Positions 3,996 through 9,294 of a stretch of 32,857 nucleotides of DNA are shown piece by piece. Each line of letters begins with the position of its first letter. The stretch's first letter is position 1. The notes under the pieces are model-generated. The model made no database searches. It worked only from the letters and a program-made list of their open reading frames with translations, and was not told where the DNA came from. The DNA comes from Ignavibacteriota bacterium (GTDB lineage: Bacteria; Bacteroidota; Ignavibacteria; UBA10030). The stretch is taken from assembly GCA_003142475.1 (NCBI GenBank), contig PLMK01000065.1, positions 16,875 through 49,731 on the forward strand, written 5' to 3'. The translations under genes were made by a program, and so were the position numbers.

Positions 3996-4460
3996 TCACT
4001 TTAACGCTTGGGAGATCGCATTGTAATCCGGTTCCACACCTGGATTTTCTGAGACCCACATATATTTCACATTGCCTTTCGCGTCAATGATGAATACCGC
4101 ACGTTTAGAAACGCTGTATCCTTTCATTCCGGCAAAATCTTCATGAACGCCGCCGTACTCTTTGCTCACTTCGCGCGAGTAATCACTCAGTAATGGAAAT
4201 TGTAGATTGTTTTGTGTCGCAAATGCTTTATTCGCAAATGGCGCGTCGACGCTGATCCCAACTACCTGCGCATTAAGATTGTTGAAATTAGACATCGCGT
4301 CGCGAAACGTACAGAGTTCCTTAGTGCATACGCCTGTAAATGCACCAGGATAAAATGCAAGCACAATATTTTTGCCACGGAACTCAGAAAGTGAACGAGA
4401 TTTGTTATTTGTGTCGAATAAAGTGAAATCTGGCGCTTTACTTCCAATGTTAATTGCCAT
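3996..4460 (-). CDS. Peroxiredoxin, AhpC/TSA redoxin family (AhpE-like)
   Basis: A second, distinct peroxiredoxin of 154 aa. The motif [20 protein letters not shown] contains peroxidatic Cys45 and another Cys50; the FTGxC form is typical of AhpE/Prx5-like redoxins rather than Bcp. The start at 4460 is fixed by an ideal AAGGAGG 8 nt upstream, 24 bp inside a longer frame. It is the first gene of the prx-bcp-PTPS-folE operon. A 12-bp inverted repeat (4488-4543) lies just upstream and could be the operator of a peroxide-responsive regulator, which is inference. Confidence 0.92.
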
Positions 4461-4487
4461 ATAGATATCCTCCTTTTTAGTCATTGT

Positions 4488-4543
4488 GAATTCAAAGATA
4501 AGAACATTCTTTCGGCACGGAAGGTTTCATCATCTTTGAATTC
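4488..4543. promoter_or_regulatory. 12-bp perfect inverted repeat between prx and tRNA-Ser
   Basis: GAATTCAAAGAT (4488-4499) and its exact complement ATCTTTGAATTC (4532-4543) are separated by 32 bp. The repeat occupies the divergent promoter interval between the peroxiredoxin operon (-) and tRNA-Ser(CGA) (+); its right arm overlaps the tRNA -35 element. Possible operator or mRNA leader hairpin. Confidence 0.55.
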
Positions 4544-4563
4544 TTTGCTCTTTTCTGTATATT
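4536..4563 (+). promoter_or_regulatory. Promoter of tRNA-Ser(CGA)
   Basis: TTGAAT (4536-4541), 16-bp spacer, TATATT (4558-4563). Transcription would begin near 4570, about 15 nt before the mature tRNA. Confidence 0.5.
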
Positions 4564-4584
4564 TGATTTATAGAGACCAAACTC

Positions 4585-4671
4585 GGAGAGGTGCGAGAGT
4601 GGTTGAATCGACCGGTCTCGAAAACCGGAATAGCCGCAAGGTTATCGAGGGTTCGAATCCCTCCCTCTCCG
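4585..4671 (+). tRNA. tRNA-Ser(CGA)
   Basis: 87-nt class II tRNA. The acceptor ggagagg (4585-4591) pairs with cctctcc (4664-4670), and the discriminator is G4671. The anticodon loop CTCGAAA gives CGA (reads UCG). It has a long variable arm and a T arm gaggg-TTCGAAT-ccctc. CCA is not encoded. Confidence 0.97.
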
Positions 4672-4680
4672 CTTTTTCAA

Positions 4681-4712
4681 GCCGTTAGAGAATTGCAAAA
4701 CATAACGGTTTT
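4681..4712 (+). terminator. Weak terminator after tRNA-Ser(CGA)
   Basis: GCCGTTA (4681-4687) and TAACGGT (4703-4709) form a 7-bp stem (one G-T pair) followed by a short T run; the loop is long (15 nt), so efficiency is uncertain. Confidence 0.4.
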
Positions 4713-4742
4713 CGGTACAAACCATTTTTAGAAAGAGATACA

Positions 4743-4970
4743 ATGATTAATATAAAGTATAAATTCGACGAGAATAGTTTTGAAAAATCCATTATTGATG
4801 TAATCATGAATCAAATCCGTGATAAACTTAAGGATGTCCTGTGTCCAAATGGGCATACAGGAAATTCGACAATAACCGTTACTGGAAAAAGCATCGAAAA
4901 TCTCAGTTTTTCCGTAGAATGTTGTTGCGATAAATACAAAAAAACTATCAAATCTAAATTAAAGAGATGA
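4743..4970 (+). CDS. Small hypothetical protein with Cys cluster
   Basis: 75 aa, not recognised. The N-terminal 30 residues form a likely amphipathic helix (FEKSIIDVIMNQIRDKLKD). Then come a CPNGH turn, a beta-rich stretch (STITVTGKSIENLSFSVE), a CCC triplet and a lysine-rich tail. The single Cys-x3-His and the CCC could bind a metal, but no known zinc-ribbon spacing is visible. An AGAAAGAG purine tract lies 5 nt before the ATG. It stands alone between two tRNA-Ser loci, which fits cargo or relic of elements that use these tRNAs. The coding call rests on length, ribosome site and composition only. Confidence 0.55.
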   Translation: MINIKYKFDENSFEKSIIDVIMNQIRDKLKDVLCPNGHTGNSTITVTGKSIENLSFSVECCCDKYKKTIKSKLKR

Positions 4971-5013
4971 TTTTTCTCTCGTCTTTTTTGAAACTGAGAC
5001 ACTACCCTATTAT

Positions 5014-5042
5014 TTGGAAATGAGATAATAGATTAGGATATT
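5014..5042 (+). promoter_or_regulatory. Promoter before the truncated tRNA-Ser(GGA)
   Basis: TTGGAA (5014-5019), 17-bp spacer, GATATT (5037-5042). The expected start near 5049 is 3 nt before the tRNA sequence. This was probably the native tRNA-Ser(GGA) promoter and would now drive the truncated tRNA, the GIY-YIG ORF and the intact tRNA as one transcript. Confidence 0.5.
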
Positions 5043-5051
5043 TAATCAATC

Positions 5052-5121
5052 GGAGAGATGCAAGAGTGGTTGAATTGGCTACCCTGGAAAGGTAGTGTAT
5101 CCGTAAGGGTACCGTGGGTTC
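5052..5121 (+). pseudogene. Truncated tRNA-Ser(GGA), 5' 70 nt
   Basis: The 70 bases are identical to positions 1-70 of the intact tRNA-Ser(GGA) at 5438-5524, ending inside the T loop after TTC. A 30-nt two-hairpin insert follows. Then gaatcc (5152-5157) resumes the T-arm sequence, but the rest of the T stem and acceptor 3' strand has diverged (tatctcggg instead of cactctctcc), so the acceptor stem cannot form. Not expected to yield a functional tRNA. Confidence 0.9.
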
Positions 5122-5151
5122 TGAGCCTAAGGCTCATGCGCCTCTGGCGCA
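5122..5151 (+). repeat. Two tandem 15-nt hairpins inserted in the tRNA T loop
   Basis: TGAGCCTAAGGCTCA (5122-5136, 7-bp dyad around one base) is followed directly by TGCGCCTCTGGCGCA (5137-5151, 6-bp stem, TCT loop). Together they separate TTC from GAATCC of the T loop exactly. Their origin is unknown; they may be the recognition end of the element. Confidence 0.8.
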
Positions 5152-5176
5152 GAATCCTATCTCGGGAGGAAAAACA

Positions 5177-5428
5177 TTGTTTTATATTTATGTTCTTTGG
5201 AGTGAAAAGATACAGAAACGATATGTTGGGTGCGCTGAAAATGCAGACAAACGGCTTATCCAACATAATAATGGAAAGAATCGTTTCACAAAAGGCGGTA
5301 TACCATGGATTTTAATCTATACCGAAGAATATTCTGCACTATCTCTTGCTCGAAAAAGAGAATTGGTTTTGAAAAGTGGAATCGGGAGAGAATGGTTGGA
5401 TCAGAAATTTCCTCAGTATAGAAAGTAA
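5177..5428 (+). CDS. GIY-YIG family endonuclease (UPF0213/URI type)
   Basis: 83-aa single-domain nuclease. From TTG 5177 the protein starts FYIYVL (the GIY element, Y3 and Y5), then RYVG (the YIG element, residues 15-18), KRLIQHN with catalytic-type Arg26, and the acidic pair E50-E51 in YTEEY. KSGIGREWLD near the C-terminus is typical of free-standing UPF0213 proteins. The TTG start is supported by GGGAGGA (5164-5170) 6-7 nt upstream and by the usual family N-terminus. A longer frame from GTG 5114 would translate tRNA and hairpin sequence and is less likely. The stop lies 9 bp before the intact tRNA-Ser. Known members cut or nick DNA; the target is unknown, and the tRNA gene is the obvious candidate. 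Confidence 0.88.
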   Translation: MFYIYVLWSEKIQKRYVGCAENADKRLIQHNNGKNRFTKGGIPWILIYTEEYSALSLARKRELVLKSGIGREWLDQKFPQYRK

Positions 5429-5437
5429 TATGTTCTC

Positions 5438-5524
5438 GGAGAGATGCAAGAGTGGTTGAATTGGCTACCCTGGAAAGGTAGTGTATCCGTAAGGGTACCG
5501 TGGGTTCGAATCCCACTCTCTCCG
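5438..5524 (+). tRNA. tRNA-Ser(GGA)
   Basis: 87 nt. The acceptor ggagaga pairs with tctctcc (5517-5523), and the discriminator is G5524. The anticodon stem ctacc/ggtag has loop CTGGAAA, anticodon GGA. It has a long variable arm and a T arm gtggg-TTCGAAT-cccac. CCA is not encoded. No clear promoter of its own is seen: the best match, TTGGAT/TATAGA inside the GIY-YIG ORF, has only a 15-bp spacer. Confidence 0.96.
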
Positions 5525-5692
5525 CATAAAATAAAAAAGCCGATTCTTTACGTCCTCCTCCACAGAGATTTGATGAATCAAATCCCTACGAGGATTTTCC
5601 CTCCACAATCTTTATCTCTTCCCCAACGCATCATTTTTCATCCAGGCTCGGATTGGTTCTCCTAACTTGGATCTGTGGTGGCAGCCGTCACA
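5525..5692. other. Intergenic, one small hairpin
   Basis: No coding potential beyond frames running out of the tRNA. GATTTGAT (5567-5574) and ATCAAATC (5577-5584) form a hairpin without a T tract. It lies downstream of the GlcG/HbpS-like gene and could protect the mRNA 3' end. Confidence 0.35.
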
Positions 5693-6142
5693 TCAACATG
5701 CTTTTTCAATCTGCTCTAATGCTTTTAGAACAATCTCCAGATCGGTAACTCCTGTAAACCCACTGAATCCAATAGAAAATTTTGTTCCGTCTTTTAAAAT
5801 GATGGGTTGTCCACCCTCCCAACCAATGAAGTCTGGCTTACTTATTCCAGCAATTTCTTCGGCAATTTCATTATTATAAATTTTCTTTTCATACTCTCCT
5901 GTTTTCATTCCAGTGAGCCATACTTGGCTTGCCTTTGTCCATGCGACTCTAAATGATTCGCGTGCTCGTATTTTGTTATCGTGGATAAACACTTTTCCAA
6001 ATACTCCGCCTGCTTCATCAATGATGCAGACAGCAACATTACCATTCGACACACCTTTATCTTCATCCTTCTTCATGTAAAGAGGAATTAACTCTTCCAT
6101 CCTTTGAATAAGATGTTCAATGCGTTCCTGAGGGTTATTCAT
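5693..6142 (-). CDS. GlcG/HbpS-like (DUF336, heme-binding) protein
   Basis: 149 aa. The central and C-terminal segments (RESFRVAWTKASQVWLTGM, KPDFIGWEGGQPIILKDG, IGFSGFTGVTDLEI) match the GlcG/HbpS fold, a small cytosolic or secreted domain reported to bind heme or act as an accessory to oxidoreductases. There is no signal peptide, so it is cytosolic here. GGAG lies 8 nt before the ATG. It stands alone between the tRNA locus and REP-like repeats. The family function is poorly defined; heme binding is inferred from homologues only. Confidence 0.75.
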   Translation of the reverse strand: MNNPQERIEHLIQRMEELIPLYMKKDEDKGVSNGNVAVCIIDEAGGVFGKVFIHDNKIRARESFRVAWTKASQVWLTGMKTGEYEKKIYNNEIAEEIAGISKPDFIGWEGGQPIILKDGTKFSIGFSGFTGVTDLEIVLKALEQIEKAC

Positions 6143-6308: not shown

Positions 6309-6328
6309 GTGTAACGGTTTTTGCTTTT

Positions 6329-6356
6329 GTAGGGACGTATGGCGATACGTCCCTAC
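6329..6356. repeat. 28-nt perfect palindrome, REP-like
   Basis: A 12-bp perfect stem GTAGGGACGTAT / ATACGTCCCTAC with loop GGCG. It sits 8 bp past the stop of the type IIG gene and could serve as a 3' stabilising hairpin. The sequence resembles a widespread dispersed intergenic repeat. Confidence 0.65.
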
Positions 6357-6363
6357 GAATGCT

Positions 6364-9294
6364 TTATCTTTTTCCATCGGATGGTGAGCCTGTCGAACCA
6401 CCTTCTACAACCTTTATCTCTTCTTCCGTCAATCCATATAGCTTATACACCAACTCATCAATCTCTTTATCCGTCGCCTTGATTTGATGCTCGAATAATT
6501 CTTTTTCACTGTCTGAGTTGGCGTGCTGCTTTTTCTTGTGCAGGTCTAACATTCTCTCGACAAGCTGCACCATCCGGTCGTGCATTACTTTTTCATCTGG
6601 ATTGTTAAAGTCGATTGTACGGATGGGAAGTTGCTTTATATATTCTATTTTCATCTGGGAAAACATTTCGCCTGTTTTTCCAATTCGATTCTGAAAGTAG
6701 AAATCCAATAATCGTGAATTCAAAAGACCCAAAATGAACTTTAAATCGTATCGGTTGTCTTTCTGCAAGATACTGTGAAGAGAATTTTTTACATAGAAAT
6801 TCTGATCATCAAATGTCCCAATGATTCTCTTAGCGTTTTGCCTTGTTAATATCTTTGTTTGGTCAAATATTTTTCCTTCTCTAAGCCAAACACCTGACCG
6901 CTGCAACTTCTTTTTTTCCTTTCTTGTTTCCGCCCCTTTCGCTTTTTCTTTCTTGCGCTGCAACTCCTTCTCTATGAGGGTTTTATCGTAACAGATATAT
7001 CTACCAGTCCATTCGTAAGAATATCTTGAAACTTCGCTACCATCGAGGAATCTCTTGTATCGTTTATCTTTTTGTCTATTTGATAAGAAAAGGTCTTTTA
7101 TCGCACCGAGTATTATCCCATCTTTAACATCGCATAAACTTTCCAACAAAACGGAATTACTCTGAATCCTTCCAAGAATTGGCATTGCATCAGATCGCAA
7201 GCCAAGATTTATAACATAATTCGGATTCTTGAGACACTCGGACTGGTTCAGTTCTGATTCTATATATTTCCCTTCTTGGACATTCTCGATGTCTTTCAAT
7301 ATTCTAATTCTCTGTTCTGGATGTTCTATCAGAGGTCGATTTTGAAATACAATTACAATAGTATCAACCGCCGCATCAAAAACTGCTTTTTTGAACGAGA
7401 GTATTTGGTCAATCAAAGTTGAATTCAATATCAATCCACGTAAAGTATCAAGCTGTGTGTTTGTCAAAAGGCGATTCGATACTATAAATCCACATTGTGC
7501 ACCTTTTTTTGACAAGGAGAGAAACTGTTCAAAGAAAAGTGAAAATGAATTTACCCTGCCATGGGCAGTCTTGTACTTTTTCAAGAAGTATTCTGCAATA
7601 TCTTTGATGATGTCCTCGATTGAGATATATGGTGGATTTCCGACTATAGCATCGAATCCCCCATTTTTCATGACTTCTGGGAAACCCGTTTGCCAATCAA
7701 ACGGACGGATTTTCAATGGATCAATTGTTTCTCCAAACAAATCTTTATTTGTATCCAAAATATCCATTCCAACTAGCGAATTGCCGCACTTAATGTTGTT
7801 CGAAAGGTTAGGGAGAATCGTTTCTTTCAGCTCAAATGATAACTGCTTGCCGAATGTCTCTGCGCTTTCACCTTCAAGGAGTTTCAGGTATAAGCTCATT
7901 TGCGTTACCTCGACCGCTTGCGGATCGATATCGACGCCATAAATGTTATTCAGCAAAATTTCTTTCTTCTTGCGTGTCGAGAGATGCCAAAGTCCCTGCC
8001 CGTCCGGCAGGTGGGCTTCGGAAGTTTGGAAAGCGTCGGGAACACTGCCAACCGTTTTTATTTTATCTGGATTGCTGGAGTAGTAATCGATATGGTAATG
8101 AATCAGGTAATCGAACATCTCCAAACAAAAAGATCCGCTGCCGCACGTAATATCGATAAACTTCAACTTGGCGATCTGTTCTGGAGTCTTGCCTGCAATG
8201 AGCTTGCCAATTGTGTTCTTCACAATGCATGAGGTGATAAACTGCGGCGTATAGAACACACCGCCGGCTTTTCGCACTTCCGGCTTCACCTCTACTTTTA
8301 CCCGGTGCGTTGGTGTCAGTGTGATAATTCTGCCTAAATATTGCTCGTAGATCGTGCCGAGAATTTCAATCGGAATAACGTTGAAGCGGTAAGGCGAGCG
8401 GGGCAGGTAAAGATTGACGATGATTTCTTTCAACAGCTTATCGTCAATGGAAAGTTGTTCACTTAATCTGTGTTCGTTGAAGATTAAGCCGTTATACTTT
8501 GCGCGAAGCCGCGTGAATTCTTTTAGCAAACGACGATAAATATCATCACCTGAATTGGCATAGCTCAGCAGGATTTCACTTTCTTCTATTTGGCGATCTT
8601 CGCAGATGCGAAGAAAAATAATGCGGTCGAGAATTCGCTGGACAGCTTCGTTGATCTCGCTTACCGACAACCGGGAATTGCGAAGAGCAATATTCTTTGC
8701 AAGCTCTTCCTGCCACTTTGAAAGGTCTTTGAGAAATTCTTTATCGACCGTTGTAGAAGCTTCTTTCTTCTCCGTTGGAATTCTTTTTTCCAATTCTCCT
8801 GCAAAAACGGCATCATGAGAAAATGTATCATACAATGGATTGAACTGGTCAACATAACGGTCATAGGTCAAATCGAATTCTCTAATCAATCCATCGAGCG
8901 GCTTTTCATACTTGGGTCGCGCGAGTGTTCGGAAGGGACGGAATTCTTCAAAATCCGTAAGGATAACGATCGGCACTTTAGAACTGAATCCGTAGGACTT
9001 TGCTTGAAAAACAGGCGTCGGATCAGTAAGCTTGACGGAAGGCTTCTTTGCTTCGACAAAGAATTTTGTCTTACCATCAATGAGAAAACGATAATCGGGT
9101 CTGGTGGAATCTGAACGAGAGGTAGGGGTTTCAACACGAACTTCCTTCGGATTCAGAATATTCCAACCTAATGCTTCAAAGAAAGGATTAATGAACCGGA
9201 GGCGCGTTTCCGCTTCATTCATCTTTTCATGTTTCTCCGTGTGAAAAGTCTGAACTAAGGATTCTATTTTTTGTTTCGATTGTTTTTTATCCAT
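6364..9294 (-). CDS. Type IIG restriction-modification enzyme (nuclease-N6-adenine methylase fusion)
   Basis: 976 aa single-chain enzyme. The N-terminus (residues 1-170) is a PD-(D/E)xK nuclease: P66-D67 and E81-A-K83 in RPDY...VEAKKP. A helical linker follows. The gamma-class adenine methylase has SAM motif I DITCGSGSF near residue 380, GVDIDPQAVEVTQMSLYLKL, and the catalytic NPPY near residue 552 in FDAIVGNPPYISIED. Residues about 690-950 form a TaqI-like target-recognition domain ending in MKIEYIKQLPIR and a coiled-coil tail. Such enzymes methylate one strand and cut at a distance. No separate specificity or methylase gene is adjacent. No ribosome site is obvious before ATG 9294. The palindrome at 7995-8011 is embedded in frame. 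Confidence 0.93.
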   Translation of the reverse strand: MDKKQSKQKIESLVQTFHTEKHEKMNEAETRLRFINPFFEALGWNILNPKEVRVETPTSRSDSTRPDYRFLIDGKTKFFVEAKKPSVKLTDPTPVFQAKSYGFSSKVPIVILTDFEEFRPFRTLARPKYEKPLDGLIREFDLTYDRYVDQFNPLYDTFSHDAVFAGELEKRIPTEKKEASTTVDKEFLKDLSKWQEELAKNIALRNSRLSVSEINEAVQRILDRIIFLRICEDRQIEESEILLSYANSGDDIYRRLLKEFTRLRAKYNGLIFNEHRLSEQLSIDDKLLKEIIVNLYLPRSPYRFNVIPIEILGTIYEQYLGRIITLTPTHRVKVEVKPEVRKAGGVFYTPQFITSCIVKNTIGKLIAGKTPEQIAKLKFIDITCGSGSFCLEMFDYLIHYHIDYYSSNPDKIKTVGSVPDAFQTSEAHLPDGQGLWHLSTRKKKEILLNNIYGVDIDPQAVEVTQMSLYLKLLEGESAETFGKQLSFELKETILPNLSNNIKCGNSLVGMDILDTNKDLFGETIDPLKIRPFDWQTGFPEVMKNGGFDAIVGNPPYISIEDIIKDIAEYFLKKYKTAHGRVNSFSLFFEQFLSLSKKGAQCGFIVSNRLLTNTQLDTLRGLILNSTLIDQILSFKKAVFDAAVDTIVIVFQNRPLIEHPEQRIRILKDIENVQEGKYIESELNQSECLKNPNYVINLGLRSDAMPILGRIQSNSVLLESLCDVKDGIILGAIKDLFLSNRQKDKRYKRFLDGSEVSRYSYEWTGRYICYDKTLIEKELQRKKEKAKGAETRKEKKKLQRSGVWLREGKIFDQTKILTRQNAKRIIGTFDDQNFYVKNSLHSILQKDNRYDLKFILGLLNSRLLDFYFQNRIGKTGEMFSQMKIEYIKQLPIRTIDFNNPDEKVMHDRMVQLVERMLDLHKKKQHANSDSEKELFEHQIKATDKEIDELVYKLYGLTEEEIKVVEGGSTGSPSDGKR
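7995..8011 (-). repeat. REP-like palindrome inside the type IIG coding sequence
   Basis: CCTGCC and GGCAGG flank CGTCC. On the coding strand it is read as HLPDGQG (about residues 427-433), between motif I and the ILLNNIYGVDIDP block where relatives vary in length. It looks like an intergenic-type palindrome taken into the reading frame. Confidence 0.45.

Follow-up and report, generated by a model that had tools for sequence, protein, structure and literature searches.

Known elements and nucleases at tRNA genes

The nearest published relatives that we found for the locus described here are SegB, from phages, and the mobile ORFs (mORFs) of fungal mitochondria. SegB is a free-standing GIY-YIG homing endonuclease of T-even phages (T6) that cuts within tRNA genes with a preference for the motif RAWTSGAAC, which was present at 23 of 83 sites (PMC13096335, consulted in part). 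According to the same partial text, SegB drives the tandem amplification of a tRNA segment through recombination, its residues Y17 and G19 have been mutated, and enzymes of the free-standing GIY-YIG kind are described as poor at cutting their own allele (PMC13096335). In our own reading, the SegB motif would correspond to the T arm of a tRNA gene on the other strand. The mORFs are described in atp6 of Allomyces and in atp6, atp9, cox2 and nad3 of Glomus, three of the four Glomus enzymes being LAGLIDADG and one GIY-YIG, and their mobility is attributed to the element-encoded endonuclease (PMC3630166, consulted in part). GIY-YIG proteins have also been described in rRNA gene inserts of CPR bacteria, in a paper of which the consulted main text does not contain the word tRNA (PMC11270868), and the consulted part of PMC1564403 does not name tRNA genes as neighbours. 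In the open-access literature, with most subscription papers and all bioRxiv preprints outside it, we found, among the papers listed, no chromosomal tRNA-coupled GIY-YIG genes with rebuilt tRNAs.

Integrative elements of the tyrosine-recombinase type use tRNA genes, rebuild the tRNA and leave a direct repeat of part of it. The Ssn proteins of Neisseria and others are single-strand-specific GIY-YIG nucleases that accompany cognate palindromic repeats and cleave at them. We know of no link to tRNA genes for Ssn or for UPF0213 / SLX1-type proteins.

The locus studied here lies in what we call the window, the whole stretch of 32,857 nucleotides that was analysed, and consists of a 386-bp unit next to a tRNA-Ser(GGA) gene. 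It resembles SegB in that a gene for a GIY-YIG enzyme adjoins tRNA genes, whereas SegB is a phage gene in tRNA arrays with no favoured isotypes and, as described in the consulted part of the paper, involves no tRNA-loop insertion, rebuilt target or displaced hairpin-bearing copy (PMC13096335). With the mORFs it would share, in our comparison, an endonuclease ORF situated in a gene together with an inserted gene-end copy that restores that gene, the native gene end being displaced behind the ORF; the mORFs differ, in the text consulted, in occupying mitochondrial protein genes and not tRNA genes or bacterial chromosomes (PMC3630166). In contrast to tyrosine-recombinase elements, the window's 386-bp unit has no integrase and its repeat is the 5' part of the tRNA; a direct repeat of the 3' part, which is a feature of those elements, occurs only in a mirror form of the unit (for example L036 and L038). 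Like a homing endonuclease gene, the unit is present or absent at the orthologous target and stays with its cognate target across hosts. We consider it probable that this is a minimal homing-type mobile element, which inserts in the loop of a tRNA gene and brings along a tRNA piece from which that gene is rebuilt.

A 386-bp insertion in a tRNA-Ser gene

All the features of the locus lie on the forward strand, around a pair of tRNA-Ser genes. The first gene of the pair, tRNA-Ser(CGA) (4585-4672), was called by ARAGORN and Rfam and has orthologues in all six genomes of the genus. Downstream there is a direct repeat of 72 bp, which the sequence-only reading had described as exact and which direct comparison confirmed. 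The left copy (5050-5121) starts 2 bp before the tRNA and contains the 5' part of tRNA-Ser(GGA) as far as the T-loop TTC. The right copy (5436-5507) belongs, as that reading also held, to a complete tRNA-Ser(GGA), called as intact by ARAGORN and Rfam at 5438-5525 (88 nt in ARAGORN, including one trailing C) and showing 0 mismatches to the orthologue at the empty site L272.

Right behind the TTC of the left copy comes a hairpin, TGAGCC-TAA-GGCTCA (5122-5136), followed by a second one, TGCGCC-TCT-GGCGCA (5137-5151), that ends right before GAATCC. The left copy had been taken for a truncated tRNA; this holds for the 5' part up to the T loop, but the copy is not merely truncated, since the hairpins are followed by GAATCCTATCTC (5152-5163), which we read as a degenerate remainder of the tRNA 3' part. 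The 5' 70 nt, the two T-loop hairpins and this degenerate part would together form a displaced tRNA-like copy (5052-5163), in which ATCTC of GAATCCTATCTC can pair with GAGAT of the left copy, according to our reading and the single-stranded DNA fold. When 5052-5177 was folded as single-stranded DNA the acceptor stem was partly kept, the two hairpins stood on the T arm and the z value was -2.26. Neither ARAGORN nor Rfam called a tRNA in the displaced copy, and Rfam (E up to 1) gave no tRNA match in 4400-5700 beyond tRNA-Ser(CGA) and the intact tRNA-Ser(GGA).

A ribosome-binding-site-like GGGAGG (5164-5169) precedes the nuclease ORF of 83 aa (5177-5428; PF01541), which runs from a TTG at 5177 to a TAA at 5428. 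The ORF list and Pfam bear out the earlier description of the insert as two hairpins and a single GIY-YIG ORF without an integrase: this is the only ORF with a family match in the 386 bp, and an island with its own integrase was rejected because no other such gene lies between the repeats. A group I intron was also excluded, as no intron RNA family matched 4400-5700 (Rfam, E up to 1). A promoter-like site was located at 4536-4563, upstream of the tRNA-Ser pair, such sites being no commoner here than in shuffled sequence.

Comparison with congeneric genomes

The tRNA-Ser pair and its upstream flank, with an AhpC/TSA-type gene, were found in 6 of 6 genomes of the genus. In the congeneric genome G005 (L272) the flanks match the window at 85.6% over 686 bp and 88.6% over 969 bp, there is a single tRNA-Ser(GGA) and no ORF, and a Pfam search for GIY-YIG gave no match on the contig of L272. 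Genome G003 (L273) is also empty, with a downstream flank that differs from the window. Once 5122-5507 (or 5050-5435, with the same result) is removed, the window aligns gap-free to L272 across the entire tRNA; a 50-bp gap 3' of the tRNA in this alignment is a separate difference in the terminator region. Since the flanks are conserved and the alignment to the empty site is gap-free, the window holds an insertion of 386 bp that preserved the tRNA, located by comparison with L272 and L273 at 5122-5507 (equivalently 5050-5435). In the first placement, its junction is the TTC/GA of the T loop. These alignments indicate a clean insertion with the tRNA left intact, and the presence and absence at the orthologous site agree with the proposal of a 386-bp unit sparing one working tRNA, the empty tRNA-Ser(GGA) sites sought for comparison having been found in G005 and G003. 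The alternative given by the sequence-only reading, a tRNA duplication captured by such a unit, would be indistinguishable at one locus; insertion with rebuilding appears the better reading because break points fall in loops in many loci and the nuclease clades are isotype specific (see below).

Some further differences were noted around the pair. Between both tRNA-Ser genes the window has another insertion of ~329 bp (4683-5011) relative to the empty-site loci L272 and L273, with a 75-aa ORF (4743-4970) that matched no Pfam, NCBIfam or PADLOC family. The terminator-like hairpin found behind tRNA-Ser(GGA) in L272 (L272:1756-1830) is incomplete in the window (5526-5570), where 50 bp are missing. 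An inverted repeat, TAGGGACGTAT / ATACGTCCCTA, lies at 6323-6362; the sequence TAGGGACGT...ACGTCC behind the tRNA in L272 resembles it, and both are perhaps a dispersed palindromic repeat. Close to the locus (6364-9294) there is a gene of the restriction-modification type, whose 976-aa product contains an Eco57I methylase domain and a TaqI-like specificity domain (Pfam).

The same tRNA-Ser pair is occupied in other ways within the genus. In G001 and G002 a mirror-type unit belonging to another nuclease clade follows Ser(GGA), in G004 a unit precedes Ser(CGA), and in general the occupied tRNAs vary from genome to genome (counting L006 and L040, although both are under the score cut used below). 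The genome of the window has six PF01541 matches, four of which are small stand-alone genes. Three of these four adjoin a tRNA, namely Asn (L001), Ser (the window) and Pro(CGG) (L006, frameshifted), and each has a hairpin-bearing partial copy of its own tRNA across the ORF. For the fourth (L003) no tRNA was called in its 3.2 kb, and REP-like sequences are found on either side. The sequence-only reading had proposed to look in related genomes for UPF0213 ORFs close to a tRNA 5' end with a truncated copy of that tRNA upstream; small GIY-YIG ORFs beside a tRNA gene and its displaced copy did recur there.

The GIY-YIG protein

The 83-aa ORF matched the Pfam GIY-YIG domain (PF01541) with an E value of 3e-10 and 40.7 bits (cut-off 22.6). 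In a 20-row protein alignment that includes the window protein, Y5, Y16, G18, R26, H30, E62 and K66 were invariant, and we take Y5, Y16, G18, R26 and E62 to be the active-site tyrosine pair, glycine, arginine and glutamate of the GIY-YIG superfamily. The dN/dS of the ORF was 0.197 against L192, and it ranged from 0.04 to 0.284 (median 0.155) among same-isotype pairs (n=43), these values being rough because of overlap between pairs and a dS above 1 in many of them. Such values indicate that the protein is under purifying selection. The nearest solved sequences in a PDB sequence search were the UPF0213 proteins 1zg2 and 1ywl, and then SLX1. No NCBIfam model scored above its cut-off, the best being a group I intron endonuclease model (E 0.022). 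Carriage of the window protein by a phage or plasmid was rejected, with no match in phage and plasmid records at E 1e-5, and so was the label of defence system, for which PADLOC gave weak matches only (the best was PDC-S14, E 0.0016, 15.5 bits).

Linkage to tRNA genes across genomes

To put the locus in a wider frame, small GIY-YIG domains were collected from three sources into a master set, in which identical contexts were merged (306 to 278 domains). ORFs longer than 230 aa and domains scoring below 55 bits were left out, and with them the tRNA-linked genus loci L006 and L040. Genus and family loci had been chosen by the Pfam profile (for the family, among the matches listed and not UvrC-like). 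Phylum and named-genome loci had been found with profiles of tRNA-linked proteins, some of them picked as arrays, and give no estimate of the linked fraction. An intact tRNA was located within 300 bp of 171 of the 278 domains (the family part among the matches listed), with 63/123 linked among Pfam loci, 37/69 in the phylum search and 71/86 in the named scan. The 171 linked domains correspond to 164 distinct tRNA places, and the linked tRNAs cover 17 amino-acid isotypes. All the tRNAs within 300 bp in the master set (200/200, including clusters and hence not independent) are on the strand of the ORF, and none overlaps a domain in antisense.

Before merging into this set, the genus and family Pfam loci had 66 of 139 small domains with an intact tRNA within 250 bp (for the family, among the matches listed). 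In the phylum, the profile of linked proteins matched in 95 of 148 genomes (E up to 0.001). The named genomes contributed 80 loci with 83 domain rows, and 70 of these rows have an intact tRNA within 250 bp, always on the ORF strand; they carry 22 NCBI phylum names, 8 of the 70 having none. Over half of these 22 names are, we assume, CPR lineages.

Two other GIY-YIG clades, A and C, served as controls and were linked to tRNAs in 0/26 and 0/16 cases, together 0/42 (family loci among the matches listed; both clades drawn from Pfam loci only), type A having been defined by motif before tRNAs were counted and clade C delimited after its lack of tRNAs was seen. The regular expression that separated types A and B had misplaced two Asn-linked proteins (L053 and L097) in A and was replaced by the tree-based control. 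The inspected loci of the control clades adjoin other palindromes. Outside these clades, 65 of 236 domains have no intact tRNA within 300 bp; 13 of them are no more than 330 bp from the end of a sequence, for 24 there is a tRNA on the ORF strand within 1500 bp, some occupy inner positions in arrays and some are simply unlinked. Antisense tRNAs occur within 1500 bp in 8/236 and within 300 bp in 0/236.

Tandem arrays of three units, each an ORF plus a tRNA piece, were found before tRNA-Ser (L173), before tRNA-Pro (L174) and behind tRNA-Leu (L175). Separately, locus L171 (G083:C34:6000-10800) contains eight GIY-YIG ORFs in tandem with a spacing of ~365 bp, and no tRNA was called in its 4.8 kb.

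As the genome is a draft of 81 contigs, an exact repeat of 72 bp could in principle come from a plain tandem duplication of the tRNA with a bystander ORF, or from an assembly artefact, a doubt that the sequence-only reading had itself raised. We regard this as scarcely credible: the same arrangement is found again at many tRNAs and in many genomes and phyla, examples being unrelated tRNAs of the window's own genome, the named isolates Winogradskyella (L263) and Chryseobacterium (L236) and the single-contig genome G160, and neither the 200 tRNAs out of 200 on the same strand nor the 0/42 in the control clades would be expected from artefact or chance.

tRNA specificity and mirror forms

Across the tree built from all domains, the neighbouring tRNA changes its amino-acid isotype 38 times, compared with a mean of 103.5 and a lowest value of 97 in 200 shuffles, and the window protein clusters with units at Ser(GGA) and Ser(CGA) of other genera. 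The protein therefore follows the tRNA more than the host.

The units come in two orders. In form D, that of the window, a 5' part of the tRNA is followed by the ORF and then by the intact tRNA. In form U the intact tRNA comes first, followed by the ORF and a piece of its 3' part; among Arg and Ser units of this form (L021, L033, L035, L036 and L038) this piece is an exact match of 18 bp that starts with the base following TTC and runs to the 3' end. Of the 171 linked domains of the master set, 76 have their nearest tRNA upstream and 95 downstream, and single isotype clades, for example those of Leu(CAA), Asp and Arg, contain both forms. In L247 two pieces of tRNA-Lys (19-37 and 38-74) flank the ORF and an intact tRNA-Lys(TTT), as if the entire unit sat in the anticodon loop. 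Both the mirror forms and L247 fit the insertion into a loop of a unit that carries a tRNA-rebuilding piece.

A small nuclease useful to the host, for DNA repair, for uptake or restriction of single-stranded DNA or for RNA processing, might alternatively use tRNA genes as a safe transcribed harbour, the copies arising from recombination at a repeat-prone place. The relationship of the domain to UPF0213 and the structure-specific SLX1, the purifying selection on the ORF and its constant location on the tRNA strand would all suit such a gene. We nevertheless consider it unlikely, given that its presence varies among congeneric genomes, that its clades track the tRNA isotype, that some arrays have partial or broken members and that the break points are enriched in loops.

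Break points and hairpins

The loci contain 309 displaced tRNA segments with 93% identity or more, providing 458 break points. Compared with a uniform expectation (in brackets), 82 (49) fall in the T loop, 104 (67) in the D loop, 72 (49) in the anticodon loop, 30 (66) in the variable region and 170 (227) in the rest, the loop limits being approximate and the segment ends liable to shift by chance matches. Exactly at TTC/GA there are 48 of the 458. Break positions differ among members of one clade, and some displaced copies retain just 16-24 nt of the tRNA. The sequence GTTCSAWTY, the reverse complement of the SegB motif, is found in 82 of 151 distinct linked tRNAs; in the window it is at 5504 in the intact tRNA, and the left copy has it in interrupted form.

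At 173 of the 458 breaks there is a directly adjoining perfect hairpin (stem 5 or more, loop 3-8), compared with 503 of 9160 positions drawn at random from these loci, where hairpin starts only were scored; at the other 285/458 there is no perfect hairpin. The stems vary in sequence yet stay paired, as in TGAGCC/GGCTCA, TGCGCC/GGCGCA, TCCGCC/GGCGGA and TCAGCC/GGCTGA.

These data bear on two further explanations. The unit could be an integrase-type cassette, moved in trans by a tyrosine recombinase encoded elsewhere and with the nuclease as cargo. Integrases are known for crossovers at anticodon and T loops, and in the mirror form the direct repeat left behind is the tRNA 3' end, just as with an integrase. 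This appears improbable, as the GIY-YIG ORF is alone in the 386 bp of the window, where the repeat is the 5' end of the tRNA, breaks occur in the D loop and variable region too, and the cargo clade tracks the tRNA isotype. The other explanation is a toxin-like RNase that cleaves tRNA, with the hairpin-bearing tRNA-like copies acting as decoy or antitoxin RNAs. The isotype-specific clades and the predicted fold of the window's displaced copy, which would keep a tRNA-like shape with extra hairpins, could be accommodated in this way. Insertion at the DNA level in an empty site speaks against it, as do displaced copies with 16-24 nt of tRNA; moreover, related GIY-YIG clades accompany DNA palindromes and not tRNAs, and the PDB matches are UPF0213 proteins, of unknown function, or the DNA-structure nuclease SLX1. 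We thus find the toxin-like RNase very improbable.

Proposed mechanism

The homing-type element that we favour would have one recognised gene, for a small GIY-YIG nuclease, each lineage being bound to one kind of tRNA. It would insert into a loop of its cognate tRNA gene, in this case the T loop, where TTC/GA marks the middle of the T arm's TTCGAA palindrome. Carrying one part of the tRNA (the 5' part in the window, the 3' part in the mirror form), the inserted copy would join the undamaged part of the target and so rebuild a working tRNA, and the other part of the old gene would stay across the ORF as a displaced, hairpin-bearing relic. Insertion, rebuilding, strand and isotype specificity, enrichment of breaks in loops, selection on the protein and tandem arrays are all evident from the sequence comparisons. 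The loop break points, together with the analogy to SegB, suggest that the product of the ORF cuts or nicks the tRNA gene in the loop, and recombination repair with the donor allele may then copy the unit into empty tRNA alleles. At the DNA level a tRNA arm is nearly palindromic (GGGTTC/GAATCCC here), which would be convenient for an enzyme that acts as a dimer or reads structure. The hairpins at the break may hinder recutting of the displaced copy. Several observations weigh against the homing-type reading: in contrast to a classical homing site, the rebuilt tRNA gene keeps the presumed target, the T-loop motif being lost in the left copy only; 170 of the 458 break points are outside the loops and variable region and 285 have no perfect hairpin; the SegB-like motif is present in no more than 82 of 151 linked tRNAs; 65 of 236 domains have no intact tRNA within 300 bp and 8 have an antisense tRNA within 1500 bp; break positions vary within a clade; and the window protein had no match in phage or plasmid records (E 1e-5). 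As the ORF runs in the direction of the tRNA, transcription from the tRNA promoter could extend into it at no cost to expression of the tRNA, and we presume that it is transcribed in this way.

Whether these units make up a class, as yet unnamed, of self-mobile chromosomal elements of a few hundred bp and one gene seems to us evenly balanced; in such a class each lineage would read a tRNA arm as a palindrome, cut the loop, insert and always rebuild the tRNA, with niches in the tRNA genes of at least 17 amino acids and in many bacterial phyla. If so, the element could live in essential tRNA genes, showing how a nuclease could parasitise an essential gene harmlessly, and it would be a bacterial counterpart of the fungal mobile ORFs that restore gene ends and of phage SegB. 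Many small stand-alone GIY-YIG genes, of mostly unknown function, would then be mobile elements whose target is revealed by the next tRNA. With each gene adjoining its predicted substrate, the clades would permit working out a recognition code between protein and tRNA arm, and provide a collection of natural reagents with which tRNA genes might be addressed.

Palindromes away from tRNA genes

We dropped the idea that the hairpins are exclusive to these units, since palindromes of the same pattern are present elsewhere in the genome. Examples of the 15-bp pattern TNNGCCNNNGGCNNA away from tRNAs were found at G000:C59 (L285:623-744) and at G000:C7:36258-36287 (L283). One palindrome of this type is within a SAM riboswitch (Rfam SAM, 71 bits), and another is doubled and located shortly behind an apparent gene end. 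Genome-wide, the loose hairpin pattern was slightly commoner than in the control (32 vs 24). Hairpins of the TNNGCCNNNGGCNNA pattern may be small palindromic elements in their own right, which settle in the loops of RNAs.

Other clades of small GIY-YIG genes (L042, L044, L052, L106 and others; L073, L078 and L083) are found among different palindromes. Their repeats are of the CTGAGCGAAGTCGAAG type, or are inverted repeats, ACCCCGTGAGAT / ATCTCACGGGGT, that flank the gene, so that there is perhaps one nuclease lineage per type of palindrome.
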